DNA of 47,272 nt from a virus: IMG/VR virus record IMGVR_UViG_3300047370_000207, positions 1 to 47,272 of that record; one strand, 5' to 3'. Below are positions 10,788 through 43,643 of the stretch, piece after piece. A program made the translations under genes and the position numbers. The notes under the pieces are model-generated. The model worked only from the letters and a program-made list of their open reading frames with translations. It did not search any database and had not been told where the DNA came from. How positions within the stretch are numbered: position 1 is the first letter of the stretch; each line of letters starts with the position of its first letter.

Positions 10788-10800
10788 TCAAACTATATTG

Positions 10801-10808
10801 TATAAATA
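10801..10808 (+). promoter_or_regulatory. Late promoter motif (TATAAATA) upstream of gp8
   Basis: TATAAATA lies in the 54-base gap between the 181-residue gene and gp8, 33 bases before the gp8 ATG. This matches the T4 late promoter core read by the gp55-type late sigma factor and the related motif described for cyanophages. No -35 element is expected for this class. Confidence 0.75.
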
Positions 10809-10841
10809 AATCAAGACAACAACGTTCTAGAGAAAAAATAA

Positions 10842-31900: not shown

Positions 31901-34900
31901 AATAATCTCGGTCCATATCTAAACAAACCATATTCAACTAACCCTGTTCCTAGAGCACTGGTTGAACTTACTGATTCTGGTAAGATCTCGGAAGATCAGA
32001 TTCCCCCTCTACGTCCTTTCCAAGTATTTACGGTTGCAAACCAATCAGAAAGAGTTGCTATTGAAGGAGCACTTGCTGGTGATATTGCAATTCAACAGGA
32101 TACTAACTCTTCATTCATTCTAAACAATGATAATGATAGTTTGTTTGTATCGTTCCCAATTGATTCCACTCTTCAATTCACCATTGGTGACATCTTTACT
32201 GGCAGTAATTCTGGCGGTAAAATTCAATCAACTGAATATAGAGAAGGTGTTGTTTATCAAATCAGTATTACTGATAATGGTTCTGGTTATGTTACTCCCC
32301 CTGTTGTAACTATCTCTGGTGGTAATCCTCAAGCAGGTGCTGTTTCAGCATTTGCTACTTGTTCGATTGCAAATGGTCAAGTTGTCCTGGTCGAGATTCA
32401 ACTATTCAATAACTATATTGGTGGTAAAGGATACACTACTGCTCCTACAGTTACGTTCTCTCCTCCAGCAGGTTCTGGAACGCAAGCAGCTGGTGCTGCT
32501 ATAATTGAGTCCAGACTCTATGGTGATATCGTCAACAATATCAAGATAGAAGATACAGATGATATCGAATCTAGTGATATTCCTGCCGAGACTATTGCTA
32601 TTACCCGTGTTATTAATACTTCTGCGAGTGATAGTAATAACTGGGTATCTCTATCTTCCAATCAAATTGCTGCTAATGACATTACATCTGGTGTTATTTC
32701 TACCGCAAGATTAGCATTTACTTCAGATGCTGCAAACTCCTTCACATTCCTTAGAGGAGATCAGTCATATAATCCTGTTATTCAATCACTCAAGGGTGCT
32801 GAGACTAGATATTTTGCTAAGATTACTTCACAAGCAAACAGCAGTTCTTCGCAATTAGTTTTTGCTACTAATTCAGATGTACTTCTTGGTCATGAAGTTG
32901 TAGCAAACATTAATGGTATTCAACCTAATACTAATATTTCTGGTATTCTTACTGCTGCTGGAACAACCACAGTCTCAATTGATAATCCACTAACAGCTAC
33001 AATTCCAGTCAACACAGTTATTGAATTTGAGCGTGGTTCATCTCCACTAACATTTGAATCATCACTTACTCAAGGAGACTTTATTGAATCCGTTGTTATT
33101 GCAGCGGGTGGATCTGGATTTACTGATGGTCAATTCTTTGATGTAGAACTAGATGGTGGATCTGGTACAGGACTCAAAGCAAATATTATTGTAAGTGGTG
33201 GTACAGTTTCAGATCTAACACTTACTTCTACTGGTGTTGGATTCCTAAATGACTTCACAGTCACTTCTGCTCCAGCAGCTATTGGTTCTGGTACTGGTTT
33301 AGTTCTACTTGCAAAACTCAGTACAGTCAATAAGCAATTTGCAAACGTTGCTGTTGATATCTCTAGAGTTTCTGATCTAACTATTTCTGCTGACGAATAC
33401 GGAACAATTGGTGTTGCTAGATTCTATAAAGATCAATTTAAAATTGGTCTTGCTGGTAATGGTTCTATTCAACTTAAGACTGGAGCAGACTCTGGTCTTG
33501 ATGCTGACCTTCTCGATGGTGTTCAAGGATCTTTCTACCTTAACGCAGGTAATCTAAACGCAGGTGTTCTGCCCGTTGATAGATTATCTGGTACTTATAA
33601 TATTAATATTGCTAACCAGTCTGGTAGTACATTAAGACTCAAGTCTTCTACAAGTAACCCAGCATCGAATCCAAACCCTGATTCGTTTAACGTTGGTATA
33701 ATTGCAGATACTAGAAATAATGCTGCTGATGGTCTAGCAGATGGTGGCACACGTCACGTTACAATGACTATCAGGAATGGTGGATCTGGATTTGATGCAA
33801 CATTCGGTGGTGTAAGACAACTTGCATTCACTGATAATGATAATATGTATCTTAGAGGTTCTGGTTCTACCCTAGCAACCTTTAGTACATGGGCAAAAAT
33901 CTGGTCTTCCCAGAATGATGGCATCAACTCTGGACTTGATGCTGATAAACTTGATAGTCGTCAAGGAACTTTCTATCAAAATGCTATCAATACAAATGAA
34001 GGCACATTCAGTGATCTTAGAATGCCTTCTCACCAAACACAGAAGGACTTCCAAGATAGAGTTAGAATTCTTGATTGGACAGGTCAACCAAGATTTAAAA
34101 TTCTTGTTAGAGATGAACTATTAACGGCATCTCCATTCTTAGTTGGTTTGCCAGTTAACTTGTATGATGCTCAAGGTCTTGCTCCTGGTCGTATTTCAAT
34201 TACTGATATTGCCATCAACCAAGATGCCAATGATCCTTCTAATAATTTCACTCTAATTACAGGTACACTAACAACAGGTAACTTTATTGGAGCGATTGCA
34301 ATTGGTGATACCGCAATCAACTATCCTTTCCAAGATTTTAGTATTGCGGACCTAGACGCTAATGCAGATGGACTACCCGATGGTACATTTGAAGTTGGAG
34401 GACTAGAAAGTAGTGGTGGTAATGCCAGATTGAAACTTGGTAGAAACGATGGTATCTCTGCTTCAGATCCTTCCGTCTACTTCAGATCTTCTCTCAACCC
34501 ATCAACTAACTATAGTTCTGCAATTATTGCTACTGGTGGTAATTCCACCGATGGTTCTGGTTCTCTGGAATTTAAAGTATCAGATGTAAATCAGTTAACT
34601 CTATTAGGCAACATTATTTGGAATGAAGGTAATGTAGTATTCAACTCCTCTAATGTATTATCAACAACATCACTGAAGTCTGCTGTAATGAGAGACACTA
34701 GTGGAGACTTTAGTGCTGGAACAATCACTGCTTCTCTAACTGGTGCTGCTTCACTTAACGTTCTTAAGGCAGGCGATACAATGTCAGGTCTGCTCTCCAT
34801 CTCTGGAGTAGCGGTAGGACAGCAAGCATTGAGCGTATCTGGCAGAGGAGATTTCCTAAGCAATATTACAGTTGCTGCTGACCTAACAGTCAACACGGAC

Positions 34901-35992
34901 ACATTGCACGTTGATGCTATAGATGATACAGTAAGCATTGGCACAACTACTTCTGATTCTGCAGTAAAACTTCTGATTGTAGAAGATGGCGATCAAGATG
35001 TTGTCCTGAGAATGTATTCAACTCCTAATAGTGGAACACAATATGACTCAAGACTTGAACTTCTTGGACAGAGTGGCACTCTAGATGAGGGTCTCCAACT
35101 CATGTATGACAACTCTGTTGGTGACGTGTACTTCAAGCAACTATACAATTCTCTAACAACAGAAGTTGCAATACATTTCAGCACTGGTGCATTTACTGAC
35201 GCTCTAACGATTACTGGTAACGGCAATCTGGGTGTACAGATGACTGCCAGTGATGCATATGAGTTGGATGTAAATGGATCTTCAAGATTCAAGACTGCTC
35301 TTAGCGTTGGTCGTGCAGATAGCAATGCTGGTGCTCCTGCAATTTTCGCAGGCGCAACTGGTGGATCTAATGGAGCAGGTGGTTATCTAAGTAACTTCCG
35401 TGTTGGTAACCAACTTCTACAAGCAGATACTTTTGAAATCACACCTAGTGATGGAACGCAGGGTGCTCTAACTTGGAAATCTACTCCAGCACTTGCTATC
35501 CAAGGTTCCGAGAACCGAGTTGCAATCAATACTCTTCAGTTTGGTGGTACTGATACTACAGTATCTCCACAGGTTCAAAGAGAATATCAACTGAACATCC
35601 AAGGCGATATCAACATCAATGGTCTGGTCTTCCAGAACAACGCTGAGTTCGTTACTTCCAGATGGACAGAATCTGATAATGAACTGGATATCTACAGAGA
35701 GTCTAAGGTCTGGATTAACCCAGATTCAAGTGTTGCTGGATTTACTGGCAACCCCGACTATGATCTACAACTTGGTGGAGGTGGCAATGATGGTCACTTC
35801 GGACTACATGGTGTAATGTACATTAGAGATACCCCTCAGTGGATTGATACTACTGGCATCATCAAAAACTCCGCTAACACATTGTCAGAAAATGTAATTA
35901 TTCCCGCAAATGCTAATGCAATGTCCATTGGTCCAATTACAATTCAACCAGGCATCACAGTAGATGTCGTAGGTAACTGGGTAATTATGTGA
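25985..35992 (+). CDS. Giant tail-fibre-like virion protein with beta-helix-like domain
   Basis: A 3335-residue protein. The N-terminal 140 residues hold two glycine-aromatic modules (GGTGYTIQPTVNI, GKGYITAPAVTISGG). STKIATTEYVLN near 278 is a motif common in phage tail fibres. About 293-400 (GGRIYVSAQIGSDLNDGRSA, then VRTIKKAAQ and GDNLRLVIIRP) resembles the start of a pectate-lyase-type right-handed beta-helix. Its apparent continuation, NDGYVQLVSVFVIFCADGVL, is only near 1697. Between them lie four tandem FTCDxDG/YPRPG modules and two KCRRD repeats. Further on are KLPTQKAVKDYI near 1963, GLDADLLDGVQGSFYLNAGN near 2504 and GLDADKLDSRQGTFYQNA near 2648, the fibre motif also seen in T4-type fibres. 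It ends with NVIIPANANAMSIGPITI and VVGNWVIM, a closing module seen in other cyanophage fibres. No catalytic residues for a lyase can be assigned. Confidence 0.83.
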   Translation: MSFQLNSDRETIRAIAPTLIGSQELSIRAGSGSDEKEVLRTLLDPGTDLPRVGINRTGNRIDRVVVNLGGTGYTIQPTVNIEPPPAGGTQAVGSAIIDEGFVTAVLIDNPGKGYITAPAVTISGGNGTGAQVEAFLDTVDFELDINGAIRTSTSIISDTARILNLDIDNFITPDAKFRAPDLKTYMNNTGIPWTAQTIVQKDAYRYRGPNVYQALNAGETGTVPPLHKDGIETNNEVQFKHIGFRVTDPSAFQYNETGESGEFPRSITPLLGDRSTKIATTEYVLNLATNDVGGRIYVSAQIGSDLNDGRSAVAPVRTIKKAAQLAWSTPGVKETLIVSGGDYVEDNPISLPPDASVVGDNLRLVIIRPANPRKHIFKFGDKNYVIGVTYRDQVDSTGDAVATWDFAMVFDDKQRINYDYTANGDFGTSFPIGTQIFGPEKFRADFQTNTGLSNLTSNLAVKGINTGAEGIINEVNFGSIVGPQAYISGKLDFSVTSGAFTAGETFLFGGTGSIKWTPNTPYTIGQLLWATDNVYQVAVAGTSAASSPIHTTGTVATGPDTLELTFLRDAYEFVSTDIRSIRAEGEVVFEETDITDALPLVRIDFSKQGTAEVSTGGFQDPNVVEDNGGIIFYTNALVGRQNTHDFKEGQEIFIEGMPTSSPDLSFLNGKQRIYKVLEDADGRSRRFVIPKKTTITTTDNFDPGQFSSVRAYGKSITISLLNSPNRFPMATPVARRFQDACLQIRNNVEFIADEVVGKVNDQFKKEYYSVYEIGGTPDSTLTPTDVDYDPATGIATFTVTSHGLSIGDGVRITDNSITQTCAMDGYKTEHTSPNSHHYSSGKTLPIRSSGFTTDQFELFVGISGPDQQYTPTDVTYDPATGNVNLTIGAHTLSVGEGIVIDDNSLSFTCDMDGDQSVKSYPRPGIDPFASRSIPITEISATSITINGGISGPNKYFQPSAVNYNAATGDMTVTVGQHGLGVGRNVVLADNSFTFTCDQNGYATEHTYPRPGQDPQAGKSIAITDVGTNSLTVSGATYTASSGQVDITTSAPHGMQEGDYILFEDNSLTFTCNLDGNVVSKNYPRPGYDYPSGRWFPISNISASGFRVNIGPSSYTGVHAFVSATNNGLKHQDGTFTINVGNAGSASGSNHQFVNATAQAIKHEPQSVHTFTGSTSNSVKHLPQSAHTFVRSAPNALSIGGSTLKIYLGTSTFVHTYVSGGVVTYNSQNYNITNFVYDNISTGEATITLASPVAALSEDATIRISDLVVECVVDGVTTQKTYPSFSIPVNDNKCRRDVGHFISAITRDLEFGSNYNVIDAAKKYIDGTNTQIDFVNTEIIQTVRALEYARELITFAMRKWRTGTGAPGQAIYVPQYSQLDRYFDPTIIDDISTPACANVASAIDTLAYLFIDVLANDTSGTYLDGAYLIARNRDLIADEAYKLAMIQYPSLGLGNIDERKCRRDINLITGAIIRDLSLGGNAGIVNAAELYFTGSALTGIPASELAPTRFAFEKARDLCIAAMRNWTDASGAAVTTPNSDIPQFTDSSILVDPTGVPLCANVEASITTAFQLLDDILSGTTSPGATVRDTGTLFDTSTIATFPDSIIYDSKGTKLTPRSDFADNPIIEASPYTQNASVISFLGGGGAEVDGDKVKQPNCPFPGLELDGTASFPNQGKSMVASAFTIVSFGGTGYKITNDGYVQLVSVFVIFCADGVLAESGGYCSITNSATNFGIFALRGIGFRKDAYEFDVGLISNVSSTPTGRTIFTVSGLGREPLEHYIVKIDGFSNVDPDIEYFIDTVEGVTVGPPFTAQLTLESGSGGGAALKNDATDNAVSVGTLVGETVRLHRPSIVNSSSHTWEFAGSGTNYNALPENGGTKIEAYEQVSENYGRVYVSGTDELGDFKVGTFARIENRTGNITFTGTVTISEVEFLKLKGGDVVVTGFDASNTLGGANTTNSKLPTQKAVKDYITNNLGPYLNKPYSTNPVPRALVELTDSGKISEDQIPPLRPFQVFTVANQSERVAIEGALAGDIAIQQDTNSSFILNNDNDSLFVSFPIDSTLQFTIGDIFTGSNSGGKIQSTEYREGVVYQISITDNGSGYVTPPVVTISGGNPQAGAVSAFATCSIANGQVVLVEIQLFNNYIGGKGYTTAPTVTFSPPAGSGTQAAGAAIIESRLYGDIVNNIKIEDTDDIESSDIPAETIAITRVINTSASDSNNWVSLSSNQIAANDITSGVISTARLAFTSDAANSFTFLRGDQSYNPVIQSLKGAETRYFAKITSQANSSSSQLVFATNSDVLLGHEVVANINGIQPNTNISGILTAAGTTTVSIDNPLTATIPVNTVIEFERGSSPLTFESSLTQGDFIESVVIAAGGSGFTDGQFFDVELDGGSGTGLKANIIVSGGTVSDLTLTSTGVGFLNDFTVTSAPAAIGSGTGLVLLAKLSTVNKQFANVAVDISRVSDLTISADEYGTIGVARFYKDQFKIGLAGNGSIQLKTGADSGLDADLLDGVQGSFYLNAGNLNAGVLPVDRLSGTYNINIANQSGSTLRLKSSTSNPASNPNPDSFNVGIIADTRNNAADGLADGGTRHVTMTIRNGGSGFDATFGGVRQLAFTDNDNMYLRGSGSTLATFSTWAKIWSSQNDGINSGLDADKLDSRQGTFYQNAINTNEGTFSDLRMPSHQTQKDFQDRVRILDWTGQPRFKILVRDELLTASPFLVGLPVNLYDAQGLAPGRISITDIAINQDANDPSNNFTLITGTLTTGNFIGAIAIGDTAINYPFQDFSIADLDANADGLPDGTFEVGGLESSGGNARLKLGRNDGISASDPSVYFRSSLNPSTNYSSAIIATGGNSTDGSGSLEFKVSDVNQLTLLGNIIWNEGNVVFNSSNVLSTTSLKSAVMRDTSGDFSAGTITASLTGAASLNVLKAGDTMSGLLSISGVAVGQQALSVSGRGDFLSNITVAADLTVNTDTLHVDAIDDTVSIGTTTSDSAVKLLIVEDGDQDVVLRMYSTPNSGTQYDSRLELLGQSGTLDEGLQLMYDNSVGDVYFKQLYNSLTTEVAIHFSTGAFTDALTITGNGNLGVQMTASDAYELDVNGSSRFKTALSVGRADSNAGAPAIFAGATGGSNGAGGYLSNFRVGNQLLQADTFEITPSDGTQGALTWKSTPALAIQGSENRVAINTLQFGGTDTTVSPQVQREYQLNIQGDININGLVFQNNAEFVTSRWTESDNELDIYRESKVWINPDSSVAGFTGNPDYDLQLGGGGNDGHFGLHGVMYIRDTPQWIDTTGIIKNSANTLSENVIIPANANAMSIGPITIQPGITVDVVGNWVIM
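28331..29328 (+). repeat. Four tandem modules with FTCDxDG and YPRPGxDP motifs
   Basis: Modules of roughly 75-88 residues start near 28331, 28595, 28856 and 29078 in the fibre gene. Each has Y-x-x-x-x-G, then HGLxxGxxxxxxDNS, then F/QTCxxDG, and modules 2-4 have YPRPGxDP followed by SIPI-like residues. There is one cysteine per module at the same place. The DNA is diverged, so the duplication is old or under selection for difference. Confidence 0.8.
29858..30780 (+). repeat. Two copies of a KCRRD repeat in the fibre gene
   Basis: Copies start at 29858 (KCRRDVGHFISAITRDLEFG) and 30359 (KCRRDINLITGAIIRDLSLG), 501 bases apart. Both continue with an Ala- and Tyr-rich helix, an ALEYARELITFAMRKW or AFEKARDLCIAAMRNW segment, and a CANV motif. 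They appear to be helical modules repeated within an otherwise beta-rich fibre. Confidence 0.75.
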
Positions 35993-35998
35993 TAAATA
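35991..35998 (+). promoter_or_regulatory. Late promoter motif (GATAAATA) upstream of the first glycine-rich gene
   Basis: GATAAATA overlaps the TGA of the 3335-residue gene and lies 34 bases before ATG 36032. It is the last late-type motif I find before the enzyme cassette at 37094-40984, so it is the likely promoter for that cassette as well. Confidence 0.65.
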
Positions 35999-36031: not shown

Positions 36032-37090
36032 ATGTCTAGTCTAAACGTAGGAACTGTAACTCTGTCTAACGGACTGACACTTCCTTCATATACATCAAGT
36101 CCAGATAACAGACCATCACATAGTGCTGGTAGGACTATCTATGATTCGACTTCGGATACTATTCAGATATCTGATGGATCACAATGGATTAGTGCGGGTT
36201 CTGCGGGTAGTGGTTTGATTACTGCTACTGGCGGTGAAGTTACATTCTCTGGTGGATATAAAGTTCACACATGGTACAATGTAGGAGAGTATAATTTTAA
36301 TGTAACGGGAGCTGCTGGTGGTGCTACTGCCGAAGTTCTTGTGGTAGCAGGCGGTGGTGCTGGTGGAACTATTGGTGGCGGTGGCGGTGGTGGTGGCGTT
36401 TGCTACCATGGAACTTACCCAATCTCAACTGGTTCTTATGATGTAAAAGTTGGAGCAGGCGGATCTACACCTTTGTCTGGTTATCCTGTTGCTAAAGGTC
36501 AATCTGGAGGTAATTCTGAGTTTGGAACACATACCGCATTTGGCGGAGGTGCTGCTGGATCATGGGGACCTAATGCTAGAGAAACTGGAGAACCAGGAGG
36601 TTCTGGCGGTGGTGCATCTGGTCCTGCTCCCAGACAACCACAAAGAGGAGAAGCAACCAAAGGTAGTGCTCCTGGTGGCGGTGTTACTCATGGAAATCCT
36701 GGTTATAGAAACGGCAATAATACTTCTGGAACACACTCTGGTACTCATACTGGCGGTGGTGGCGGCGGTGCTAACCCCAACAATACAGTTAATGGAAGAG
36801 TCGGTGGTGATGGCATCACCTACATGGGTCTAACTGTTGGTGGTGGTGGCGGTGGTGGAACCCACGAAAACTATGGTACTGCTCCAATCACAACTCCTGC
36901 TGCTCCTGGTGGCGGTGGTCGTGGTGGATCTAGATCATCGCAATATGCAGGTGGCGGTGGACAAGGTTGGGGCGAACCAGGACAAGTTAACACTGGTGGC
37001 GGCGGAGGCGGCGGCTGGTATAATGGTACTGGTAATGGTCAAGGTGCTGCTGGTGGTCCTGGCATCGTTCGTGTTCGTCATACAATCTAA
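36032..37090 (+). CDS. Glycine-rich tail-fibre/adhesin-like protein 1
   Basis: A 352-residue protein. Residues 1-56 (MSSLNVGTVTLSNGLTLPSY, then GRTIYDSTSDTIQISDGSQW) form a short fibre-type attachment module shared with the second glycine-rich gene at 41004. A beta segment (EVLVVAGGGAGG) then leads into about 240 residues dominated by Gly with runs such as GGGGGGGGV, interspersed with Asn, Thr, Pro, Tyr and Trp. It ends GGPGIVRVRHTI, the usual closing strand of phage glycine-rich domains. Glycine-rich sandwiches of this kind occur in adhesins such as gp38 of some T-even-like phages, so a receptor-contact role is plausible but inferred. The exposed Tyr and Trp are candidate targets of the enzyme genes that follow 3 bases later. 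Confidence 0.8.
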   Translation: MSSLNVGTVTLSNGLTLPSYTSSPDNRPSHSAGRTIYDSTSDTIQISDGSQWISAGSAGSGLITATGGEVTFSGGYKVHTWYNVGEYNFNVTGAAGGATAEVLVVAGGGAGGTIGGGGGGGGVCYHGTYPISTGSYDVKVGAGGSTPLSGYPVAKGQSGGNSEFGTHTAFGGGAAGSWGPNARETGEPGGSGGGASGPAPRQPQRGEATKGSAPGGGVTHGNPGYRNGNNTSGTHSGTHTGGGGGGANPNNTVNGRVGGDGITYMGLTVGGGGGGGTHENYGTAPITTPAAPGGGGRGGSRSSQYAGGGGQGWGEPGQVNTGGGGGGGWYNGTGNGQGAAGGPGIVRVRHTI

Positions 37091-37093
37091 TAT

Positions 37094-37591
37094 ATGTTTT
37101 ACAATGTAGAGGAAAATTTCCTCAATAGTGAAGAGTTTGAACAACTAACTAAACAAACAATAAACAATCCTTATTTCCCGTTGTATTTGAAGAACCGAGT
37201 AGCGTCGGCGTCTTCAAACGACGGGATTTATTTTACCCACAATTTTTTCTTTGCTGGCGAGGTATGTAGTGATTACTACGATCATCTTTCTCCTATTATA
37301 GAAAAAATTAAAACTAAAAAATTTCTAAGAATTCAATTAAATTTATTTCCCAAAACCACTGAGATCGTGCGCCACGACTGGCATACAGATATGCTTTGGG
37401 ATCATAGAGGTTGTATAGTCTACCTAAATACTAATGATGGGTCAACGTTATTAAAAGAAGATGATGAGAATGCTATAAGCATTCGTTCTATATCAAACAG
37501 AGCATTATTTTTCAATCCAGCAAAACCTCATTGTAGTACAACATGTACTGATTCTGAATTCAGAAGCAATATTATTTTTAATTATGAGTGA
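37094..37591 (+). CDS. Predicted Fe(II)/2-oxoglutarate-dependent oxygenase (cassette enzyme 1)
   Basis: A 165-residue protein starting 3 bases after the glycine-rich gene. The fold class is inferred from a facial-triad pattern: H97-T-D99 in RHDWHTDMLWDH, distal H146 in NPAKPHCSTT, and R157 in SEFRSNIIFNYE as the candidate 2-oxoglutarate-binding arginine. The strand between them, RGCIVYLNTNDGSTLL, fits the double-stranded beta-helix core, and the length fits a minimal enzyme of this superfamily. The substrate is unknown. Its end overlaps the next start by 8 bases (37584-37591). It is one of four putative non-haem iron oxygenases around the halogenase. A catalytically active enzyme is likely but untested. 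Confidence 0.72.
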   Translation: MFYNVEENFLNSEEFEQLTKQTINNPYFPLYLKNRVASASSNDGIYFTHNFFFAGEVCSDYYDHLSPIIEKIKTKKFLRIQLNLFPKTTEIVRHDWHTDMLWDHRGCIVYLNTNDGSTLLKEDDENAISIRSISNRALFFNPAKPHCSTTCTDSEFRSNIIFNYE

Positions 37592-38255
37592 ATTATATAA
37601 TGTTTTTTCTATACCCGTATGGAAAACAAAAATAACTAAAAATGATTATGACAAAGATCTCATTCTCAATGAGATGCTGTACAATTTTAATGTAGATCCC
37701 AAAAGAAATACTTGGGATAAGGTAATGCCAACTACCATGAAAAGTAACTGGCACCATTCCAATAATGACGAGGCAGACGAAAAATTTAAATCTATCAGTT
37801 ACAAAGACTCTGGATTGACTTCTGTTATAGACTCAAAGGTTAGAGAATTTGTTTCTCACCTTGGATTAAATTCCAGCATCAATTATTTTTTTCAAATAAC
37901 TAATTATACAGTATCTACAGAAGGTTACTTCCTCACCAGTCATGGTCATGGTTGCGACTCTTTTAGTTCTGTGTTATTTGTGCAATTTGATAAACTTAAT
38001 CACCCCTCTACATATTTTAATAATCCGTTTAGTTCATCAGATCAAACTAGATGGTTACAGAAAGACCTATATGATTCGTTTGATAACAAAAATTCATTTT
38101 TTAGTTACATGCAAGATACATGGTCAATTGATACTGACGAAGATGATTACATGATTTTTCCAGGACATGTCAAACACGAAGTTCCTACTGTAGGAAAATC
38201 AAACAAAGAACGAGTAACTATTTCATGCAATATTAAGGTGTACAAAAATGTCTAA
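37584..38255 (+). CDS. Predicted 2OG-Fe(II) oxygenase-like protein (cassette enzyme 2)
   Basis: A 223-residue protein. The opening MSELYNVFSIPVWKTKI and the core pattern H120-G-H122 (TSHGHGCDSFSSVLFVQFD), H198 (FPGHVKHEVP) and R210 (NKERVTISCNIKVY) follow the layout of the TIGR02466 family of putative 2OG-Fe(II) oxygenases, common in marine phages and bacteria. The metal site appears to be H-x-H...H rather than the usual H-x-D...H, as I understand is normal in this family. Such a site could favour halide or another ligand at iron, but that is speculation. The gene overlaps both neighbours by 8 bases, consistent with translational coupling with the upstream oxygenase and the downstream halogenase. 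Confidence 0.72.
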   Translation: MSELYNVFSIPVWKTKITKNDYDKDLILNEMLYNFNVDPKRNTWDKVMPTTMKSNWHHSNNDEADEKFKSISYKDSGLTSVIDSKVREFVSHLGLNSSINYFFQITNYTVSTEGYFLTSHGHGCDSFSSVLFVQFDKLNHPSTYFNNPFSSSDQTRWLQKDLYDSFDNKNSFFSYMQDTWSIDTDEDDYMIFPGHVKHEVPTVGKSNKERVTISCNIKVYKNV

Positions 38256-39804
38256 TGAAATTAATTCAATTACTATAGTTGGTGGCGGTAGTGCTGGATG
38301 GATGTCTGCCGCTACAATGATTAGGTTTTTTCCAGACAGAAAAATTACTATCATAGAAAGTCCAGACTACCCAATCGTAGGAGTTGGTGAAAGTACACTA
38401 GGACATATCAATCAGTGGTTAGATCTGCTAGGAATTCATGAAGATGATTTTATGAAGGAGTGTGATGCTTCTTACAAATTAAGTATTAAATTTACAGACT
38501 TTTATGCAAAAGGAGATGGTGGTTATCATTACCCATTTGGACCACCAATGTTGGATGGAACTGAACTTGGGTTTAATGATTGGCAAGTATTAAAACATTT
38601 TTCTCCTGGTATTCCTGTACAAGATTTTGCCAGATGTTATAATCCTATAACCCTTTTGGCAGAGCAAAATAAAATTGATAAAAATGAGAGTGGTCACTTA
38701 GATAATTTTAATTTTGCAAAAGATGCTGCATATCACTTTGATGCTGTTAAATTTGGACAATGGTTGAAAAAAAATTATTGCCTTCCTAAAGGTGTAGAAC
38801 TTATTTCATCTTCTGTAAAGAATGCTATCGTAGGTGCAGATGGAGTAGAATCATTAATTCTTGAAGATGGTACAGAGCATTCTGCTGACATGTATCTTGA
38901 TTGCACAGGATTTAAAAGTATGCTGTTAGCAGGTGCTTTAAATGAGGAGTTTGTTTCTTATAGAGATGTTGTTCCTAACAACAGAGCATGGGCAACTAGA
39001 TTACCTTATACAGATAAAGAAAAACAATTAGAACCATTTACTAATGGAACTGCTTTATCATCTGGTTGGGTATGGAATATTCCTTTGTGGAGTAGAATTG
39101 GAACAGGTTATGTGTATAGTGATGATCACATCACACCAGAGGATGCGTTAAAAGAATTCCAAGAACACATAGGAAGAGATGATCTTGAGTTTAGAGATAT
39201 CAAAATGCGTATTGGAATTCACAAAAATGTGTGGAGTAAAAATGTAGTTGGTATTGGTCTAGCAGGAGGTTTTATTGAACCTTTAGAAAGCAATGGATTA
39301 TTTACTGTACATGAGTTTCTACTCAAACTAACAAAATCTATTTCCAAACCTTTTGTAAACCAATTAGATAGAGACATTTTTAACATGTCTGTCCGTGATA
39401 TATTTGATACATTTGCTACTTTTGTAGGTCTTCACTATAGACTTAGTTCTAGAAACGATAGTCCTTATTGGAGAGATATTACAGAGAGATCTAATCTATG
39501 CGAAGAAATTTTAAAAATTCCCCAAATGCAAACAGATTTTAGACATCTAGCAGTAGCAAAAATGATTGATGATAAATTCTGTAACGGAGGACAACCTTAT
39601 ATTGCTACAGGTATGCATTATCCAATTGCAGATGAATCAACAATTTGTGCATGGGGATATCATAATGAGGTAAACTATAAAAAAATAGCACAGGAATCTG
39701 CGTTACGATTCTCTAGAAGAAAACATTTATGGCAATGTGTGGCGGACATTGCTCCAACATTGTATGCACATTTGGCAGATAAATATGAATATGAGGTAAA
39801 TTAA
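38248..39804 (+). CDS. Flavin-dependent halogenase (tryptophan-halogenase family, VirX1-like)
   Basis: A 518-residue protein of the usual length for FADH2-dependent halogenases, which make hypohalous acid from a C4a-hydroperoxyflavin and halide. All family hallmarks are visible: the FAD-binding GGGSAGWMSA (residues 12-21), GVGEST (45-50), the catalytic lysine K77 in ECDASYKLSIKF (aligned with K79 of RebH and PrnA), the W-x-W-x-I-P motif in SGWVWNIPLWSRIGTGYVYS, and FIEPLESNGLF, which carries the conserved active-site glutamate. The C-terminus lacks the FWNNSNYYC-type segment that binds free tryptophan in RebH, so the substrate is probably not free Trp. The cyanophage Syn10 halogenase VirX1, which prefers iodide and has broad substrate range, is the nearest characterised enzyme I know. 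It needs a flavin reductase, not seen here. It overlaps its upstream neighbour by 8 bases. Confidence 0.92.
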   Translation: MSNEINSITIVGGGSAGWMSAATMIRFFPDRKITIIESPDYPIVGVGESTLGHINQWLDLLGIHEDDFMKECDASYKLSIKFTDFYAKGDGGYHYPFGPPMLDGTELGFNDWQVLKHFSPGIPVQDFARCYNPITLLAEQNKIDKNESGHLDNFNFAKDAAYHFDAVKFGQWLKKNYCLPKGVELISSSVKNAIVGADGVESLILEDGTEHSADMYLDCTGFKSMLLAGALNEEFVSYRDVVPNNRAWATRLPYTDKEKQLEPFTNGTALSSGWVWNIPLWSRIGTGYVYSDDHITPEDALKEFQEHIGRDDLEFRDIKMRIGIHKNVWSKNVVGIGLAGGFIEPLESNGLFTVHEFLLKLTKSISKPFVNQLDRDIFNMSVRDIFDTFATFVGLHYRLSSRNDSPYWRDITERSNLCEEILKIPQMQTDFRHLAVAKMIDDKFCNGGQPYIATGMHYPIADESTICAWGYHNEVNYKKIAQESALRFSRRKHLWQCVADIAPTLYAHLADKYEYEVN

Positions 39805-39806
39805 TT

Positions 39807-40403
39807 ATGGCATATGAAGCGATGTGGTATCAATCACATTTACCAGATGAGTTAATTGATCCATTGGTATCAACTTTAGAACAATCTGATAATTTTATTG
39901 ATTCGGAAACTAAAGGTGGATTAGCATTAGCAGTTAGAGATAGTTCAAACCAATGGATTCCTGATACTCATTGGATTTGTGGATTGTTATGGCATTATGT
40001 TACTCTGGCAAACGATAGTAATTTTGGTTATGACATTAAAGAATTTGATCATAATTCAATACAATATACTAGATACAAAACTGGTCAATATTATGGATGG
40101 CATAAAGATGACGGAGTGGGAAGTATAATTTCTCCTGATCCTAAGCACCCAGTTGAATCTTTTATTGATAGAAATACTAAACAGATTAGAAAATTGTCTG
40201 TAGTTGTCCAGTTATCTTCACATGAAGATTACACTGGCGGAGAATTTCAAATGCTAGAAGATCAAAATAAAACTTTTTTTGCACCAAAAACAAAAGGAAC
40301 TATTATTATTTTTGATAGTAGACTTCCTCATAGAGCTAAAAAAGTATTGTCTGGTGAAAGACGATCTTTAGTTGCTTGGGTAACTGGACCCCAGTGGAGA
40401 TGA
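39807..40403 (+). CDS. Predicted PKHD-type prolyl hydroxylase-like 2OG-Fe(II) oxygenase (cassette enzyme 3)
   Basis: A 198-residue protein starting 2 bases after the halogenase stop. The triad is clear: H99-K-D101 in KTGQYYGWHKDDG, H175 in FDSRLPHRAKKV, and R185/R186 in SGERRSLVAWVTGPQWR for 2-oxoglutarate. The core IRKLSVVVQLSSHEDYTGGE, with the following KGTIIIFDS, is the prolyl-4-hydroxylase-like pattern of PKHD proteins (PiuC/YbiX type). An insertion at about 104-125 (GVGSIISPDPKHPVESFIDR) follows the HxD. The family hydroxylates peptidyl or free amino acids where known, and the substrate here is unknown. ATG 40400 or 40406 of the next gene overlaps or abuts its TGA. Confidence 0.85.
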   Translation: MAYEAMWYQSHLPDELIDPLVSTLEQSDNFIDSETKGGLALAVRDSSNQWIPDTHWICGLLWHYVTLANDSNFGYDIKEFDHNSIQYTRYKTGQYYGWHKDDGVGSIISPDPKHPVESFIDRNTKQIRKLSVVVQLSSHEDYTGGEFQMLEDQNKTFFAPKTKGTIIIFDSRLPHRAKKVLSGERRSLVAWVTGPQWR

Positions 40404-40405
40404 GT

Positions 40406-40984
40406 ATGAATTGGAATGATTGGTCTGTTATTGTAGTAAAAAATATTATAAATCCTGTATTTTTATTTGAACCTGTTCCTTGGGAACGAGGACAATATAG
40501 TTATGAGTCCAAGGGAAATGTTATTCATGTTCCTGATGAAGGACAAGTTAGTGGTAGTTTGTCTAGATATAATCACCCAAAATTTAGGCAATTGCATTTT
40601 GATGTAAAATCTAAAATAGAAAATGTAATTAATGATCCTCTGTATCCAACATACTTTTATGATAGATTTTATTTTAAAAAACAACTACTAGAAAAACATG
40701 TGGATAGACCTGCATGTGAAGTAAGCATCTCTATTAATTGCTCGCATAATTTAGATTATGACTGGCCAATATGGTTTACAACTCCAGATGGAGATGATAT
40801 CCCGTTGATTACAAATCCTGGCGATGGGGTAATTTACAAAGGATGTGAACGACCTCATTGGAGAGAACCAATGGAAGGAAATTCAGAATCATACTATCAT
40901 CAAATGTTCATGCACTACGTGCGTAGAGATGGTCCTCATCTAGAACATGCACATGATAGATGTAATACTATAAATAGAGTATAG
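40406..40984 (+). CDS. Predicted 2OG-Fe(II) oxygenase-like protein (cassette enzyme 4)
   Basis: A 192-residue protein. I chose ATG 40406 because GGAG at 40396-40399 stands 6 bases before it; ATG 40400 (overlapping the previous TGA as ATGA) and an upstream TTG at 40376 are alternatives in the same frame. Candidate metal ligands are H98-V-D100 in LEKHVDRPACEVSISINCS and H151 in NPGDGVIYKGCERPHWREPM, with R153 or a later arginine for the co-substrate. The PGDGxIYxGxExPHWREP pattern is common in cyanophage proteins annotated as oxygenases. The substrate is unknown. It closes the enzyme cassette, and its 3' end contains the late promoter for the second glycine-rich gene. Confidence 0.7.
   Translation: MNWNDWSVIVVKNIINPVFLFEPVPWERGQYSYESKGNVIHVPDEGQVSGSLSRYNHPKFRQLHFDVKSKIENVINDPLYPTYFYDRFYFKKQLLEKHVDRPACEVSISINCSHNLDYDWPIWFTTPDGDDIPLITNPGDGVIYKGCERPHWREPMEGNSESYYHQMFMHYVRRDGPHLEHAHDRCNTINRV
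40969..40976 (+). promoter_or_regulatory. Late promoter motif (TATAAATA) upstream of the second glycine-rich gene
   Basis: TATAAATA lies at the very end of cassette enzyme 4, 28 bases before ATG 41004. It would start a new late transcript at the second glycine-rich gene, separating it from the enzyme cassette. Confidence 0.7.
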
Positions 40985-41003
40985 CAAAAAGTCTTGACAG
41001 AAC

Positions 41004-42218
41004 ATGTCCGAAATTAATGTTGGTGATTTAAACGTATCTACCGAATTTAACTTACCCCTTTATAATAGTTCTAACAGACCCGTGAATCCTGCTACAGGAT
41101 TCATGATATTTAATACTACCGAAAATAAATTGCAGGTATGGACTGGATCTCAATGGAAGAGTTTTGGTCAACAAAATTATGATATTAGTGCAACTGGCAG
41201 CGTAGTTACTAACGATTTAACTGGTGACTATAACGGATACAGAGTTCATAGGTTTACTGGGGATGGAACTATAACAGTCAACCAAAGTAATCAAGATGGT
41301 GGTGTAGAATTTCTACTAATCGCTGGGGGAGGCGGTGGTGGTGGCGTCATCGGCGGTGGTGGTGGTGCTGGTGGTGTAATCTATAGAAGAGAACTTTATC
41401 TAGCACCAGGTACTTATAATATTTCCATTGGTGGTGGTGGCGCAGGAGGAACTGGATGGAATAGTCCACAGCAAGAAGGTCGCGCAGGGACTCCATCTGT
41501 ATTTACCGATAATGCTGGATTTAGTTATGAAGCAGTAGGCGGTGGTGGAGGTTGTGGTCATGGCGGTGCTACACCAAATAGAATTGCTGGTCAAGGTGGT
41601 TCTGGTGGTGGTTCTGCTAATATCTCTAGAAGAGGTGGCAATGCAATTGGTAAAAACTTCGGACCTCAAGCAACAGATAAAGCACATGATATCAGATCTG
41701 TGTACTTGAGTAGTAACGATGCTATGGCTGATGGTGATGCACTTGGTAGAAGTGCTCAAAGTTGGGATGCCATCGAAACATCAACTAATGAACACCAAGG
41801 AGTTCAAGGAAACGCTGGTGGTATCTGGGGTGATGGAGACGCTGGCGCTGGTGGTGGTGGATTTGGCACTAATGGTGGCAATGGTGGTGCTCCCAGAGAT
41901 ACTGGTGGCGAAGGTGGGCACGGAGGATACTTTGATATCAGTGGATCAATGGTTGGTTATGCTGGCGGTGGTGGTGGCGGTGTCCGAGGCACAGGTCGCC
42001 GTCGTGGCACAAAAGCAGGTGACTATGGTGGAGGAGATGGAGGCAGGGCAACTGGTGCCCCCGTCAATTTTGGTAGTCCCTCACCTAACAATGCTGAAGC
42101 TGGCGCAACTAATCGCGGTGGCGGTGGCGGTGGTGGCGGTTATAACGCCCCACGTGGCGGTGCTGTAGGTGCTCCAGGTGGATCTGGAGTTTGTATTATT
42201 CGATATAGGAAATCATAA
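41004..42218 (+). CDS. Glycine-rich tail-fibre/adhesin-like protein 2
   Basis: A 404-residue protein. Residues 1-58 (MSEINVGDLNVSTEFNLPLY, then GFMIFNTTENKLQVWTGSQW) match the N-terminal module of the glycine-rich protein at 36032. Then FLLIAGGGGGGGVIGGGG-like strands lead into roughly 300 residues of Gly-rich sequence with GGGGGGV, GGNGGAPRDTGGEGGHGG and a basic patch (RGTGRRRGTKAG). It ends GAPGGSGVCIIRYRKS, the closing strand of this domain type. The glycine-rich parts of the two proteins differ in detail, as expected for fast-evolving receptor-contact parts. Function as a fibre tip or adhesin is inferred. It has its own late promoter and is followed 2 bases later by a 107-residue gene. 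Confidence 0.8.
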   Translation: MSEINVGDLNVSTEFNLPLYNSSNRPVNPATGFMIFNTTENKLQVWTGSQWKSFGQQNYDISATGSVVTNDLTGDYNGYRVHRFTGDGTITVNQSNQDGGVEFLLIAGGGGGGGVIGGGGGAGGVIYRRELYLAPGTYNISIGGGGAGGTGWNSPQQEGRAGTPSVFTDNAGFSYEAVGGGGGCGHGGATPNRIAGQGGSGGGSANISRRGGNAIGKNFGPQATDKAHDIRSVYLSSNDAMADGDALGRSAQSWDAIETSTNEHQGVQGNAGGIWGDGDAGAGGGGFGTNGGNGGAPRDTGGEGGHGGYFDISGSMVGYAGGGGGGVRGTGRRRGTKAGDYGGGDGGRATGAPVNFGSPSPNNAEAGATNRGGGGGGGGYNAPRGGAVGAPGGSGVCIIRYRKS

Positions 42219-42220
42219 AA

Positions 42221-42544
42221 ATGGCATTAGATTTAACGTACATGGCTTCACTATCTGAAGCACAAAGAGAAGTTTTTGTAACACTTATCAATGATATTGA
42301 AAGTGAAGAACCTTTTGGTCCTGGTGTAACTTCTGATTGGGTTGACGAGATGAGAGAAAAACTCAGACTATCTGCTCCACGTCAAGAAGATATTGACAAA
42401 TGCGAAACTTTGAAAAAAATTGCTCCAAGCGATTTAACTTACTCTATTAATAGACTTGCTGATAGTCAGGGATTACCTGTTATTAGTATTATAGGTAACT
42501 CTTTGGAATTGGATAAAATTTTCTGTTCTGAAAAAGAAAACTAA
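42221..42544 (+). CDS. Small protein of unknown function (107 aa)
   Basis: A 107-residue, mostly helical and acidic protein (MALDLTYMASLSEAQREVF, then NDIESEEPFGPGVTSDWVDE and MREKLRLSAP) ending with a strand-like PVISIIGNSLELDKIF. It starts 2 bases after the glycine-rich gene, so it is probably cotranslated with it. I do not recognise the family and see no membrane segment, signal peptide or catalytic motif. A chaperone or accessory role for the fibre gene is possible by position only. Confidence 0.65.
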   Translation: MALDLTYMASLSEAQREVFVTLINDIESEEPFGPGVTSDWVDEMREKLRLSAPRQEDIDKCETLKKIAPSDLTYSINRLADSQGLPVISIIGNSLELDKIFCSEKEN

Positions 42545-42812: not shown

Positions 42813-43643
42813 ATGGCTACACCAACAACTAAAGCAGAACTAATTGCATATTGTGAACGCCAATTAGGTGCGCCTGTCCTGCAAATCAATATGGATGCCA
42901 CCCAAAAGGATGACATCATAGATCAGGCGTTGCAATATTATCACGAATACCATTTTGATGGTGTCGAAAGGATGTATCTAAAGCATCAGTTTACTGCTGC
43001 AGAGGTAACTCGTTTCACTGAAACTAATGCTGCATCCACGTCACCTGATGGAACTGGGTGGGAGAACAGGAGTAACTACATTGAAGTTCCTGAACTTGTT
43101 ATAGGTATTCAAAAAGTTTTTGGAGTCTCTTCAAATTTCTTGAGGAATAACCTTTTTGGTATGAGCAATCAATACTATTTGATGGACCTGTTTTCTTTCT
43201 CATCAGGTTCGGCATTTAGTTTTGGTAATTTTGACTTAACAAATTACTATATGATTAAACAGCACTTTGAAACTATTGATATGGTTATCAATACAGGTGC
43301 GTTTGTTGAGTATAGATTTAATAAAAGACAAGATAGATTATATGTAGATATTGATAAATCTAGAATTATAGAAGATCAATATTTACTTATTGATTGCTAT
43401 AGATACCTGGATCCAGATGTACATACTCAAGTTTATAATGATAGTTTTGTAAAGAGATATGCTACTGCTCTCATGAAGAGGCAGTGGGGTCAAAACTTGA
43501 TTAAATATAACAACGTTTCACTTCCTGGTGGCATTAATCTTAATGGTCGCCAACTATGGGAAGACGGAAACAGAGAAGTTCGTGAGTTGGAATCTAGAAT
43601 GATGATAGATTATTCACTCCCACCAATGGATATGATCGGATAA
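42813..43643 (+). CDS. gp13: Neck protein gp13
   Basis: A 276-residue protein (T4 gp13 is 309). The N-terminus ATPTTKAELIAYCERQLGAP, followed by INMDATQKDDIIDQALQYYH, is the characteristic start of gp13 in T4-like phages. In T4, gp13 and gp14 complete the packaged head and form the connector to which the tail joins. The gene opens the neck block gp13-gp14-gp15-gp16 in the T4 order, with one base between it and gp14. No unusual insertion is seen. It is transcribed probably from the CTAAATA motif in the preceding hairpin. Confidence 0.92.
   Translation: MATPTTKAELIAYCERQLGAPVLQINMDATQKDDIIDQALQYYHEYHFDGVERMYLKHQFTAAEVTRFTETNAASTSPDGTGWENRSNYIEVPELVIGIQKVFGVSSNFLRNNLFGMSNQYYLMDLFSFSSGSAFSFGNFDLTNYYMIKQHFETIDMVINTGAFVEYRFNKRQDRLYVDIDKSRIIEDQYLLIDCYRYLDPDVHTQVYNDSFVKRYATALMKRQWGQNLIKYNNVSLPGGINLNGRQLWEDGNREVRELESRMMIDYSLPPMDMIG

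Follow-up and report, generated by a model that had tools for sequence, protein, structure and literature searches.

A viral halogenase-oxygenase cassette linked to glycine-rich tail adhesins, with a possible role in tailoring the adhesin tips

In the viral DNA analysed here (the window, all 47,272 nucleotides of the stretch taken from IMG/VR record IMGVR_UViG_3300047370_000207), a predicted VirX1-type flavin-dependent halogenase (FDH) and four predicted non-haem Fe(II) oxygenases are encoded between two genes for predicted glycine-rich tail adhesins, and among related viruses the linkage between such halogenases and one adhesin family was found to be near-obligate. Because one large adhesin family accompanies the enzymes in many viruses, they most likely decorate the adhesin tips, and we consider it probable that they halogenate and hydroxylate these tips late in infection, the linkage being what was observed and the chemistry what we infer.

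The tight run of a halogenase and four oxygenases at 37094-40984 described in the earlier note was recovered with the same ORFs, families and spacing (Table 1): the G1-oxy1 gap is 3 nucleotides, oxy1-oxy2 and oxy2-halogenase overlap by 8 each, the halogenase-oxy3 gap is 2, oxy3-oxy4 overlap by 4, and the oxy4-G2 gap is 19. For oxy4 the ATG at 40400 was used as the start, which the ORF list places at an upstream TTG (40376). The flanking by two glycine-rich fibre-like genes was likewise borne out by PF21722 matches in both, and the run lies upstream of gp13, two small genes separating Gly-rich2 from gp13/Ad2 (42813). The Sf-CH11 counterpart of the 3335-aa giant tail protein carries the annotation 'structural protein', while that of S-RIM44 lies inside a block differing between isolates.

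Table 1. Features of the cassette and its surroundings in the window
Feature	Position	Strand	Evidence or remark
Giant distal tail structural protein, 3335 aa	25985..35992	+	Upstream of cassette
Late-promoter-like ATAAATA, 40 bp 5' of Gly-rich1	35992..35998	+	Motif match only
Gly-rich adhesin 1 (G1)	36032..37090	+	PF21722 E 7.4e-9; Pam3 fibre fold match; proposed substrate
Oxygenase 1 (oxy1), 2OG-Fe(II) type; H97, D99, H146, R157	37094..37591	+	phrog_274, conserved motif
Oxygenase 2 (oxy2), PF13759; H120-x-H122 ... H198 ... R210	37584..38255	+	Pfam, alignment
VirX1-type flavin-dependent halogenase (predicted); K77, E347; GxGxxG; WVWNIP	38248..39804	+	PF04820, alignment
Late-promoter-like ATAAATA inside cassette, 28 bp 5' of oxygenase 3	39779..39785	+	Motif match
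Oxygenase 3 (oxy3), PF13640 prolyl-hydroxylase-like; H99, D101, H175, R185	39807..40403	+	Pfam, 3DKQ
Oxygenase 4 (oxy4); H100, D102, H153 invariant	40400..40984	+	Motif, model fold
Late-promoter-like TATAAATA, 34 bp 5' of Gly-rich2	40970..40976	+	Motif match only
Gly-rich adhesin 2 (G2)	41004..42218	+	PF21722 E 4.7e-13; independent G2-only search
Small gene 3' of G2, function unassigned	42221..42544	+	ORF; occurs in 12 loci
Neck protein gp13 / head-tail adaptor Ad2; fixes tail locus	42813..43643	+	phrog_211 E 4.5e-42

The cassette had been thought to contain no late promoter, which is contradicted at the motif level by the ATAAATA at 39779, in the 3' end of the halogenase gene, a motif kept in 8/8 loci compared, the window counted among them and some being close relatives. 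The codons at this position specify a conserved Lys-Tyr. In the whole window ATAAATA occurs 8 times as compared to 17.4 expected from shuffles, and is not rare overall. Taken with the locus, these motifs suggest late expression of the cassette.

The halogenase matches PF04820 (E 2.3e-101), and both its nearest solved sequence (6QGM, E 2.4e-108; approximately 38% identical) and its closest solved structure are those of VirX1 of Syn10, a member of the same clade, on which basis we predict a VirX1-type FDH. Its catalytic motifs are intact, as had been claimed: K77 and E347, the latter of which we take to be the catalytic Glu partner of the former, are invariant in 17/17 rows of the halogenase alignment, the WxWxIP tryptophan motif is present as W274-V-W276-N-I-P279, and the GxGxxG dinucleotide-binding motif (G12, G14, G17) is nearly invariant in halogenase alignment A1. 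The GxGxxG motif is named for VirX1, whose K79 is the catalytic Lys from which K77 was assigned, and whose open active site accommodates bulky substrates (PMC8407142, partial text). VirX1 has been characterised as a biocatalyst, and that part of the source does not name its natural substrate. Comparison of the alignment and the structure-database match side by side placed its gene at 10511-12103 of locus L009, as the second of two halogenases 3' of glycine-rich adhesins and a small gene; an oxygenase array follows the two halogenases.

The assignment of four non-haem Fe(II) oxygenases is upheld at family level, and the HxD...H of oxy1, oxy3 and oxy4 is invariant. Oxy2 and oxy3 score above the Pfam cut-offs, whereas oxy1 stays below them (E 0.03) and oxy4 has no Pfam match at E 0.1. 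The 2-His-1-carboxylate triad of the 2OG-Fe(II) superfamily is present in oxy1 (its motif conserved in 25 sequences including that of the window), oxy3 and oxy4; oxy2 shows HxH...H, and its iron ligands are thus not assignable from sequence. Oxy3 matches the PKHD-type hydroxylase 3DKQ (E 2.3e-4). An AlphaFold2 model of oxy4 (pLDDT 84.7) retrieved 513 PDB matches at E <= 0.001, the top one a prolyl-4-hydroxylase (4J25, E 4.4e-8, TM 0.61/0.63), with protein hydroxylases, among them the EF-Tu prolyl hydroxylase, ranking among its closest folds; the double-stranded beta-helix fold is accordingly assigned by model for oxy4, and by Pfam/HMM for oxy1-3. The PHROGs labels 'DNA endonuclease V' (oxy1) and 'ferrochelatase' (oxy4) were not borne out by motifs, nor the latter by the model fold. 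The oxy4 fold and the triads of oxy1, oxy3 and oxy4 are shared with protein-modifying 2OG hydroxylases (P. putida P4H acting on EF-Tu, PHD2, viral collagen P4H), and unlike these the cassette has several oxygenases in one locus beside adhesins. Roles in DNA repair or in 2-oxoglutarate/nitrogen modulation, with the halogenase unrelated, were proposed for cyanophage 2OG oxygenases (PMC2984593, PMC3037559, partial texts); we hold them very improbable for the window, whose array lies in the tail locus, away from repair genes.

The earlier note had suggested a search for the five-gene order in other cyanophages, and this order was found in window-type loci and not in more distant ones. Sf-CH11 matches 99% of 36032-42544 at 79.6% DNA identity and has its genes in the same order, Sf-CH1a gives the same DNA match, and 31 window-type loci, several of which share contigs, keep the order as far as each contig extends, down to 52-81% protein identity in L101. 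Three more distant loci (L023, L032 and L103; halogenase 50-55% identical) have an adhesin and a halogenase with 0-1 oxygenase, so the set of five genes is not constant. From these comparisons the shared gene order is judged not to be due to chance, and the cassette to be a recurrent phage module.

The linkage was approached from the adhesin side with query profiles derived from adhesins first met beside halogenases. Searches covering the best 80 of 358 relatives, and the best 80 of at least 103 (74 loci new), gave 80 and 74 loci (154 in all) with a halogenase in 79 and 67, respectively, at a median distance of 575 and 844 bp from an adhesin (maximum 3257); among the remainder, 6 contigs end less than 2.5 kb from the last adhesin and 2 have no halogenase. 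Merging of overlaps left 108 groups (6 of which overlap halogenase-found loci): a halogenase is present in 103 and missing from 2, and the other 3 break off too early. The 138 usable halogenases form 56 clusters at 70% identity and 16 at 50%. An independent G2-only search likewise finds this adhesin linked to the enzyme cassette. Among whole genomes, 21/28 halogenases lie within 10 kb of a PF21722 match as compared to 3.5 expected (16 records with a match), and 5 further records have a halogenase and no PF21722 match. Auxiliary metabolic (AMG) cargo placed independently of a particular structural gene does not account for these best-80 and whole-genome counts. Cotranscription with a tail gene, the link envisaged earlier, is not required: in 13/146 halogenase-bearing loci, or 7/103 non-overlapping groups, the enzyme genes run on the other strand, so that cotranscription alone fails to explain the linkage. 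The cassette also contains a late-promoter motif of its own.

Concerning the possibility, raised in the same note, that such cassettes are commonly far from tail genes, of the 50 enzyme arrays for which 3 kb or more is visible on each side, 32 have a fibre gene no more than 3 kb away and 18 do not; two or more oxygenases are present in 23/32 near arrays as compared to 4/18 far ones (Fisher p 0.001), such that 23/27 multi-oxygenase arrays are near. One halogenase lineage sits among recombination genes (S-H35) and another near psbA (S-MbCM6), and together with the far arrays these indicate that the halogenase family can serve elsewhere. An ACG-2014b-type adhesin search found a halogenase in 1/13 loci, located upstream of the fibre, and 2/4 loci found with adhesin query A3 have none.

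In S-RIM44 the distal-tail block and its enzymes change together: before gp13, one isolate encodes two halogenases and six recognised oxygenases alongside three adhesins, the other a different adhesin and one oxygenase in that block, and the flanks are 92% identical over the 1.2 kb compared before it and 94.8% over 3.7 kb after it. Such a wholesale difference would also be expected if the gap between distal tail and gp13 were a hypervariable site of insertion, with the enzymes as unrelated cargo recombining with tail blocks; non-core gene hot spots were described by Sullivan 2010 (PMC3037559, partial text), and 2OG oxygenases are scattered genome-wide as well (up to 12 PF13640 matches per record). 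We nevertheless regard hitch-hiking as unlikely, as the cargo is almost always of the same enzyme classes and the adhesin-halogenase order is kept across the 16 clusters at 50% identity, on both strands and in contigs as long as 354 kb (L388).

G1 and G2 are predicted glycine-rich tail adhesins, supported by PF21722, the glycine-rich layered domain of Pam3 gp24/gp38 type, in both and by a fold match of the G1 AlphaFold2 model (pLDDT only 65.6, pTM 0.68) to the fibre of cyanophage Pam3, gp24 (7YPX, E 1.2e-6, TM 0.39/0.53); S16 gp38 was absent among the 50 matches listed for this model. Pam3 has an adhesin and chaperone pair, its adhesin loop tips are proposed as receptor-binding, and the available part of PMC9608196 speaks of neither a halogenase nor an oxygenase. 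There the tips are much less conserved than the stem, whereas two loop His columns of the halogenase-linked family are approximately 98% conserved. Both His columns are found in at least one adhesin of 165/167 linked loci as compared to 0/3 unlinked loci (p 1.2e-5), these three being the only halogenase-free relatives compared, all distant from the rest, and the strong covariation being that of a sub-family other than that of G1 and G2. At profile column 243 of the main adhesin family, H, Y or W is present in 412/412 halogenase-linked adhesins and in 0/3 unlinked relatives (one Ala and two gaps, the loop missing or unaligned). The candidate residue in G1 is His278, within GGGGGGTHENYG, its column being His in 5/5 G1-type rows and a gap in the halogenase-free L004. 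His is enriched in halogenase-linked glycine-rich domains (2.47 vs 1.02%, GC-adjusted p 0.007), whereas no enrichment is seen for Trp or Pro, or for Tyr once GC is corrected for. The earlier guess of Tyr, Trp or Pro thus fits only in part.

Action on the glycine-rich adhesins, one of two options in the earlier note, is favoured by the reciprocal and opposite-strand linkage, the tail-block co-change and the residue covariation. Late in infection, receptor-binding adhesins would be produced together with the halogenase and several 2OG-Fe(II) oxygenases, which would respectively halogenate and hydroxylate exposed loop-tip residues during folding and assembly, His being the leading candidate and Tyr or Trp possible; the modification may change or protect the host-contact surface. 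Carbamoyl-, glycosyl- or methyltransferase-like genes share arrays in some relatives, glycosyltransferase-like genes being near 11/81 halogenases only, and their products may extend the modification. It is close to an even question whether halogenation of conserved loop His/Tyr/Trp and a bank of 2OG hydroxylases constitute a previously undescribed phage system maturing adhesin tips; with equal reserve, some lineages might then carbamoylate, glycosylate or methylate them, giving side chains that are not genetically encoded at the receptor-binding surface. Phage-encoded glycosylation of virions exists, and likewise modifies the phage's own virion surface; the cassette would differ in using halogenation and hydroxylation in place of sugars.

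Halogenases have been recognised in phages for some 20 years. To our knowledge, action of FDHs on intact folded proteins is not established, which weighs against adhesins as substrates. FDHs usually act on small aromatics, which would accord with the second earlier option, in which the enzymes ride along in the late tail operon and their late product is a small molecule or RiPP carrying halogen and hydroxyl groups, which might for example protect the infected cell. FDH substrates are listed in PMC8407142, and antibiotic protection was suggested in PMC2984593 and PMC9964418 (all partial texts); the carbamoyl- and glycosyltransferase-like genes of some arrays would also fit. This option gained no positive support here and is given a low probability: no scaffold-making, carrier or export gene was found among the window neighbours scanned, and no precursor peptide turned up beside the tailoring enzymes in the scanned window genes, although a short one, or the adhesin itself, might fill that role; the option also leaves the near one-to-one adhesin linkage in either orientation and the residue covariation unexplained. 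Other virion or host-surface proteins or receptors could instead be modified late, for example in a superinfection block, which late expression would fit. Also in its favour are bacterial tryptophan-halogenase loci, three of which were scanned, though these are cellular and have another surface protein: a TonB-dependent receptor is near the halogenase in 2/3, namely L193, which has DUF6445 and SapC genes as well, and L208, and a Cupin_8/JmjC gene is beside the halogenase in L187; phage-derived oxygenase profiles match in only 4/80 cellular loci. As the linkage and covariation are adhesin-specific, we find targets other than the neighbouring adhesins quite improbable.

Tailoring of adhesins would answer what viral halogenases do, for which antibiotic protection and metabolite tuning have been proposed in print, DNA repair and 2OG control being proposals for the oxygenases, all in sources available in part. 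If adhesin-tip maturation holds, the natural substrate of VirX1 would be the adhesin a few genes upstream, and as the VirX1 gene has the same adhesin setting, that substrate becomes testable; the near-obligate adhesin partner and a named position make this a mass-spectrometry question in cultured Syn9, Syn10, S-RIM44 and Sf-CH11. If true, phages would take the chemistry of the surface that binds receptors past the 20 amino acids. This would matter for host range, for particle stability and for how phages escape receptor mutation, and it would bear on the many phage 2OG oxygenases that at present carry the labels AMG, endonuclease or ferrochelatase.

In silico analysis of gene order identified the window as a stretch of a T4-like cyanophage, the 47272-base virus record being most closely related, within the phage collection, to Synechococcus phages Sf-CH11 and Sf-CH1a (99% of 36032-42544 matched, at 79.6% identity). 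Between the 3335-residue tail structural gene and gp13 the gene order is Gly-rich1, oxygenases 1 and 2, halogenase, oxygenases 3 and 4, Gly-rich2 and two small genes, and the tight run described in the earlier note was borne out, with gaps or overlaps of 2-8 bases within the enzyme run and 19 bases preceding Gly-rich2. The halogenase matched PF04820 (E 2.3e-101) and, among solved sequences, was best matched by VirX1 of phage Syn10 (6QGM; E 2.4e-108). Its motifs are intact, as had been claimed: across 17 phage halogenases K77 and E347 are invariant, and GxGxxG and WxWxIP are invariant or nearly so, except for the Ile. The count of four oxygenases is likewise correct, as oxygenases 1-3 belong to one HMM superfamily, as the motifs are conserved (the loose pattern Hx[DEH]...H...[RK] is kept in 780 of 782 full-length oxygenase ORFs from the loci gathered by that step, and HxD...H is invariant across 39 oxygenase 4 sequences), and as oxygenase 4, for which no Pfam hit was obtained, gave a confident predicted model (pLDDT 84.7) whose structural matches are topped by prolyl-4-hydroxylases. 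Motif conservation ruled out the label 'DNA endonuclease V' for oxygenase 1 and, together with the fold, 'ferrochelatase' for oxygenase 4. Proteins carrying these names (phrog_274 and phrog_2954, respectively) are 2OG-type oxygenases, and phrog_1644 'minor coat protein' (DUF6445) comprises proteins occurring within the same arrays as the oxygenases; all three PHROG names misdirect phage annotation here.

Coordinates of the features discussed, by locus or record
Feature	Locus or record	Position	Detail
Giant gene in tail region	window	475-10236	3253 aa
Giant tail gene	window	25985-35992	3335 aa
Gly-rich1	window	36032-37090
Enzyme cassette	window	37094-40984
Oxygenase 1 (phrog_274)	window	37094-37591
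Gene with misleading PHROG name (phrog_2954, phrog_274 or phrog_1644)	L008	15384-16001
Gene with misleading PHROG name (phrog_2954, phrog_274 or phrog_1644)	L036	12191-12856
Gene with misleading PHROG name (phrog_2954, phrog_274 or phrog_1644)	L009	18635-19177
Gly-rich2	window	41004-42218
c9	L012	8496-8996
c9-like small protein	L146	17561-17926
Genes before gp13; halogenase	L147 (HTVC008M)	46-2919, 6436-8395	gp13-side genes on reverse strand
Genes before gp13	L148 (S-SSM7)	3072-8482
Remote halogenase	L002 (Sf-CH11)	170005 of record
Remote halogenase	L146	167744 of record
Remote halogenase	L152
Remote halogenase	L014

Gly-rich1 and Gly-rich2 both match PF21722 and, as judged from their sequences, these neighbours are adhesins. 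The predicted model of Gly-rich1 is only partly reliable, given a pLDDT of 65.6 and a pTM of 0.68; a search with it ranked the fibre of cyanophage Pam3 at the top (E 1.2e-6), followed by glycine-rich domains of ALK (E >0.1). In the available text of the Pam3 study the authors liken this fibre to ALK and S16 gp38 and propose a receptor site at the loop tips of its glycine-rich domain (PMC9608196). No useful match was obtained with the adhesin profile among solved-structure sequences.

The linkage of adhesin and halogenase was determined from the adhesin side with profiles derived from adhesins first met beside halogenases, the halogenase itself being unused in the searches. With 14 adhesins of the Syn10/S-RIM44 and related type as query, the best 80 of 358 relatives were kept, and in 79 of these 80 loci the adhesin is followed by a same-strand halogenase, mostly with the small protein c9 (phrog_1787) between; in the remaining locus the contig stops short of the halogenase position. 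A broader adhesin profile (best 80 of at least 103 relatives) yielded 74 further loci at 33-100% identity, with a halogenase in 67 (54 on the same strand, 13 on the opposite), while five contigs end within 2.5 kb and two loci, L426 and L434, are without a halogenase. Two or more oxygenases were present in 58/80 and 47/74 loci, respectively. Merging of the 154 overlapping loci by shared exact 400-mers left 108 groups, 103 with a halogenase (on the opposite strand in seven), the others being L426, L434 and the short L435, L446 and L447; only 6 of the 108 overlap with the 131 loci found from the halogenase. At 70% identity the 138 usable halogenases (of 146 loci) fall into 56 clusters, at 50% into 16. 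The window adhesins as queries gave 13 loci for Gly-rich1 only and 11 for Gly-rich2 only, the order being unchanged as far as the contigs reach. Two results count against a general linkage: the adhesin of ACG-2014b found 13 loci of which one has a halogenase (several have oxygenases adjoining the adhesin), and the A3 profile, which holds Gly-rich1-type and Gly-rich2 rows, found four loci only, two of them without halogenase. Within the phage set 103 of 104 non-redundant glycine-rich proteins are halogenase-linked and one is not, too few for a within-phage composition control. By tblastn against phages the L426 adhesin matched 47 records, none covering more than 80% of the query, and the best-covered matches (S-CREM1, P-TIM40, Syn9 and Syn10) are all halogenase carriers; the L434 adhesin matched no phage record.

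From the halogenase side, two query sets (each the best 80 of about 590 relatives) gave the 131 IMG/VR loci, which together with named phages held 222 halogenase ORFs (380 aa or longer) in 156 clusters at 90% identity, and the cluster representatives defined 111 enzyme arrays. Among the 50 of these with at least 3 kb visible on both sides, 32 have a fibre or glycine-rich gene no further than 3 kb away (on the opposite strand in nine), and in a looser set 68 of 86 are near one; two or more oxygenases were found in 23 of the 32 near arrays as compared to 4 of the 18 far ones (Fisher p 0.001). In 16 whole records with PF21722, 21 of 28 halogenases have a PF21722 hit no more than 10 kb away against 3.5 expected, a count in which tandem copies are not independent, split remnants (records W09 and W16) are scored once each, and halogenase-free W03 and five halogenase records lacking PF21722 are excluded; with those five as misses it becomes 21/33. 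Halogenases away from fibres include the S-H35 type amid recombination genes, that of S-MbCM6 near psbA, the P-SSM2 and Syn1 types and several metagenomic groups. On a quick tree with flagged long branches the fibre label is clustered, yet requires 14 changes, indicating that the linkage was gained or lost repeatedly. Several cyanophages also carry additional halogenases remote from the tail locus, at about 160-176 kb, which adjoin talC, psbA or tRNA genes where inspected and may differ in role from those at the tail locus.

Two isolates of the same species, S-RIM44, differ in tail block and enzymes together. In Np_42_0711 three adhesins and c9 come first, then two halogenases and seven genes, followed by two small genes and gp13, with six oxygenases recognised in the array. 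In W2_10_0709 the adhesin is a different one, accompanied by a 121-aa protein that bears a c9-like QLDTLW motif and by one oxygenase, and the tail locus has no halogenase. In the 1.2 kb compared that reaches to about 87.1 kb of Np_42_0711 the pair shows 92% identity, then 65-72% or undetected identity in the distal tail genes, and 94.8% (3.7 kb) again starting just upstream of gp13. Some 25 kb of distal tail genes and enzymes (L006 and L336 versus L146) thus differs between two conserved sides, the enzymes varying along with the distal tail. Each isolate carries one more halogenase elsewhere.

A conserved stretch, ..AYGxxGxQLDMLYKD.., characterizes c9, which usually follows these adhesins, including those of halogenase-free L426 and L434. 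No Pfam family was found in more than one of 16 members; position and a shared QLDxLW-like motif suggest that c9 is probably a chaperone of the adhesin (fibre), and its place is taken in one lineage by a tail assembly chaperone (PF16778). Among 81 halogenases with 5 kb visible on both sides, a Nol-like carbamoyltransferase occurs near 12, a weak GT9-like glycosyltransferase near 11 and a methyltransferase-domain protein near 6, and JmjC_2 and DUF6445 proteins are also found in some arrays; these added enzymes are compatible with tailoring of a surface, and also with synthesis of a small molecule. In five loci (L388, L392, L402, L436 and L445; one contig of 354 kb) the adhesins and c9 are followed by a protein with a methyltransferase domain (by profile of the phrog_1458 type), in some cases by an oxygenase as well, and lastly by the halogenase. 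Pelagibacter phage HTVC008M has five reverse-strand genes before gp13, four oxygenases/dioxygenases and one 'putative ferrochelatase', its halogenase lying between the terminase genes. In S-SSM7 a halogenase, carbamoyltransferase, Nol gene, nucleotidyltransferases and phosphoheptose isomerase precede gp13, a set that resembles a sugar-modification island. Among cellular relatives of the halogenase, TonB-dependent receptor genes lie near L193 (also with DUF6445 and SapC genes) and L208, and a Cupin_8/JmjC gene beside L187, a possible parallel link of halogenase and surface protein.

The late-promoter-like motif ATAAATA is located 40 bp upstream of Gly-rich1 and 34 bp upstream of Gly-rich2. The statement in the earlier note that no late promoter lies inside the cassette does not hold at motif level, as the motif also occurs within the halogenase gene, at 39779, 28 bp before oxygenase 3, in 8/8 compared loci, the window counted. 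Late motifs provide position evidence only, since the window has 8 as compared to 17.4 by chance, which is no excess; predicted sigma-70 promoters in the window (27 versus 26.1 expected from shuffles) were uninformative. The arrangement is real and recurrent, and cotranscription alone does not account for it.

As to the residues that may be modified, the adhesin family has two His columns, about 98% conserved, in loops separating the glycine-rich motifs, the candidate loop His standing in ...NQHSGG... and ...YGGGGxxH... (Gly-rich adhesins of Syn9 being gp38/gp39); in Pam3, according to the available text of its authors, loop positions are much less conserved than the stem (PMC9608196). Covariation was counted in adhesins aligned over 120 columns or more. 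Of the 432 that qualified, 412 are linked and three unlinked; the other 17 lie on contigs whose shortness permits no verdict and were dropped. The linked ones come from all searches, window and cellular loci excluded, with repeats included (297 different sequences). Their column pairs are HH 402, RY 4, HY 3, HW 1, RH 1 and YH 1, the second column thus being His, Tyr or Trp in 412/412, while in the unlinked adhesins the pair is Ser-Ala in L426, gap-gap in L434 and Ser-gap in L341. By locus, both His columns are present in at least one adhesin in 165/167 linked versus 0/3 unlinked cases, a lead and not proof, as all three unlinked adhesins are only distantly related and two are gapped there. In Gly-rich1 of the window the candidate is His278, in GGGGGGTHENYG; its column is His in 5/5 Gly-rich1-type rows of A3, a gap in halogenase-free L004 and Arg in the Gly-rich2 rows. 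When 62 non-redundant linked adhesins were compared with 24 PF21722 domains from Pseudomonadota loci without these enzymes, an absence known only nearby as the control loci are short (first five 2.8-3.7 kb), His content was 2.47% versus 1.02%, a difference that survives adjustment for GC (p 0.007). Of the residues put forward in the earlier note, Tyr loses its enrichment once GC-corrected, and Trp and Pro have none; the difference in Asn was also lost on GC correction. His-rich tips could alternatively serve metal binding.

Other roles have been proposed, in the available portions of the respective papers, for such phage enzymes: antibiotic protection by a halogenase and DNA repair by oxygenases (PMC2984593), host protection by PrnA (PMC9964418), 2OG/nitrogen modulation (PMC3037559), metabolite stability (PMC10452541) and host reprogramming by 24 oxygenases (PMC9602691). 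In the available text of the open-access literature no tie of halogenase or oxygenases to tail fibres was found. We consider enzymatic modification of the adhesins, with His as the candidate residue and halogenation and hydroxylation as the candidate chemistry, to be the best reading of these arrays and a reasonably probable one.
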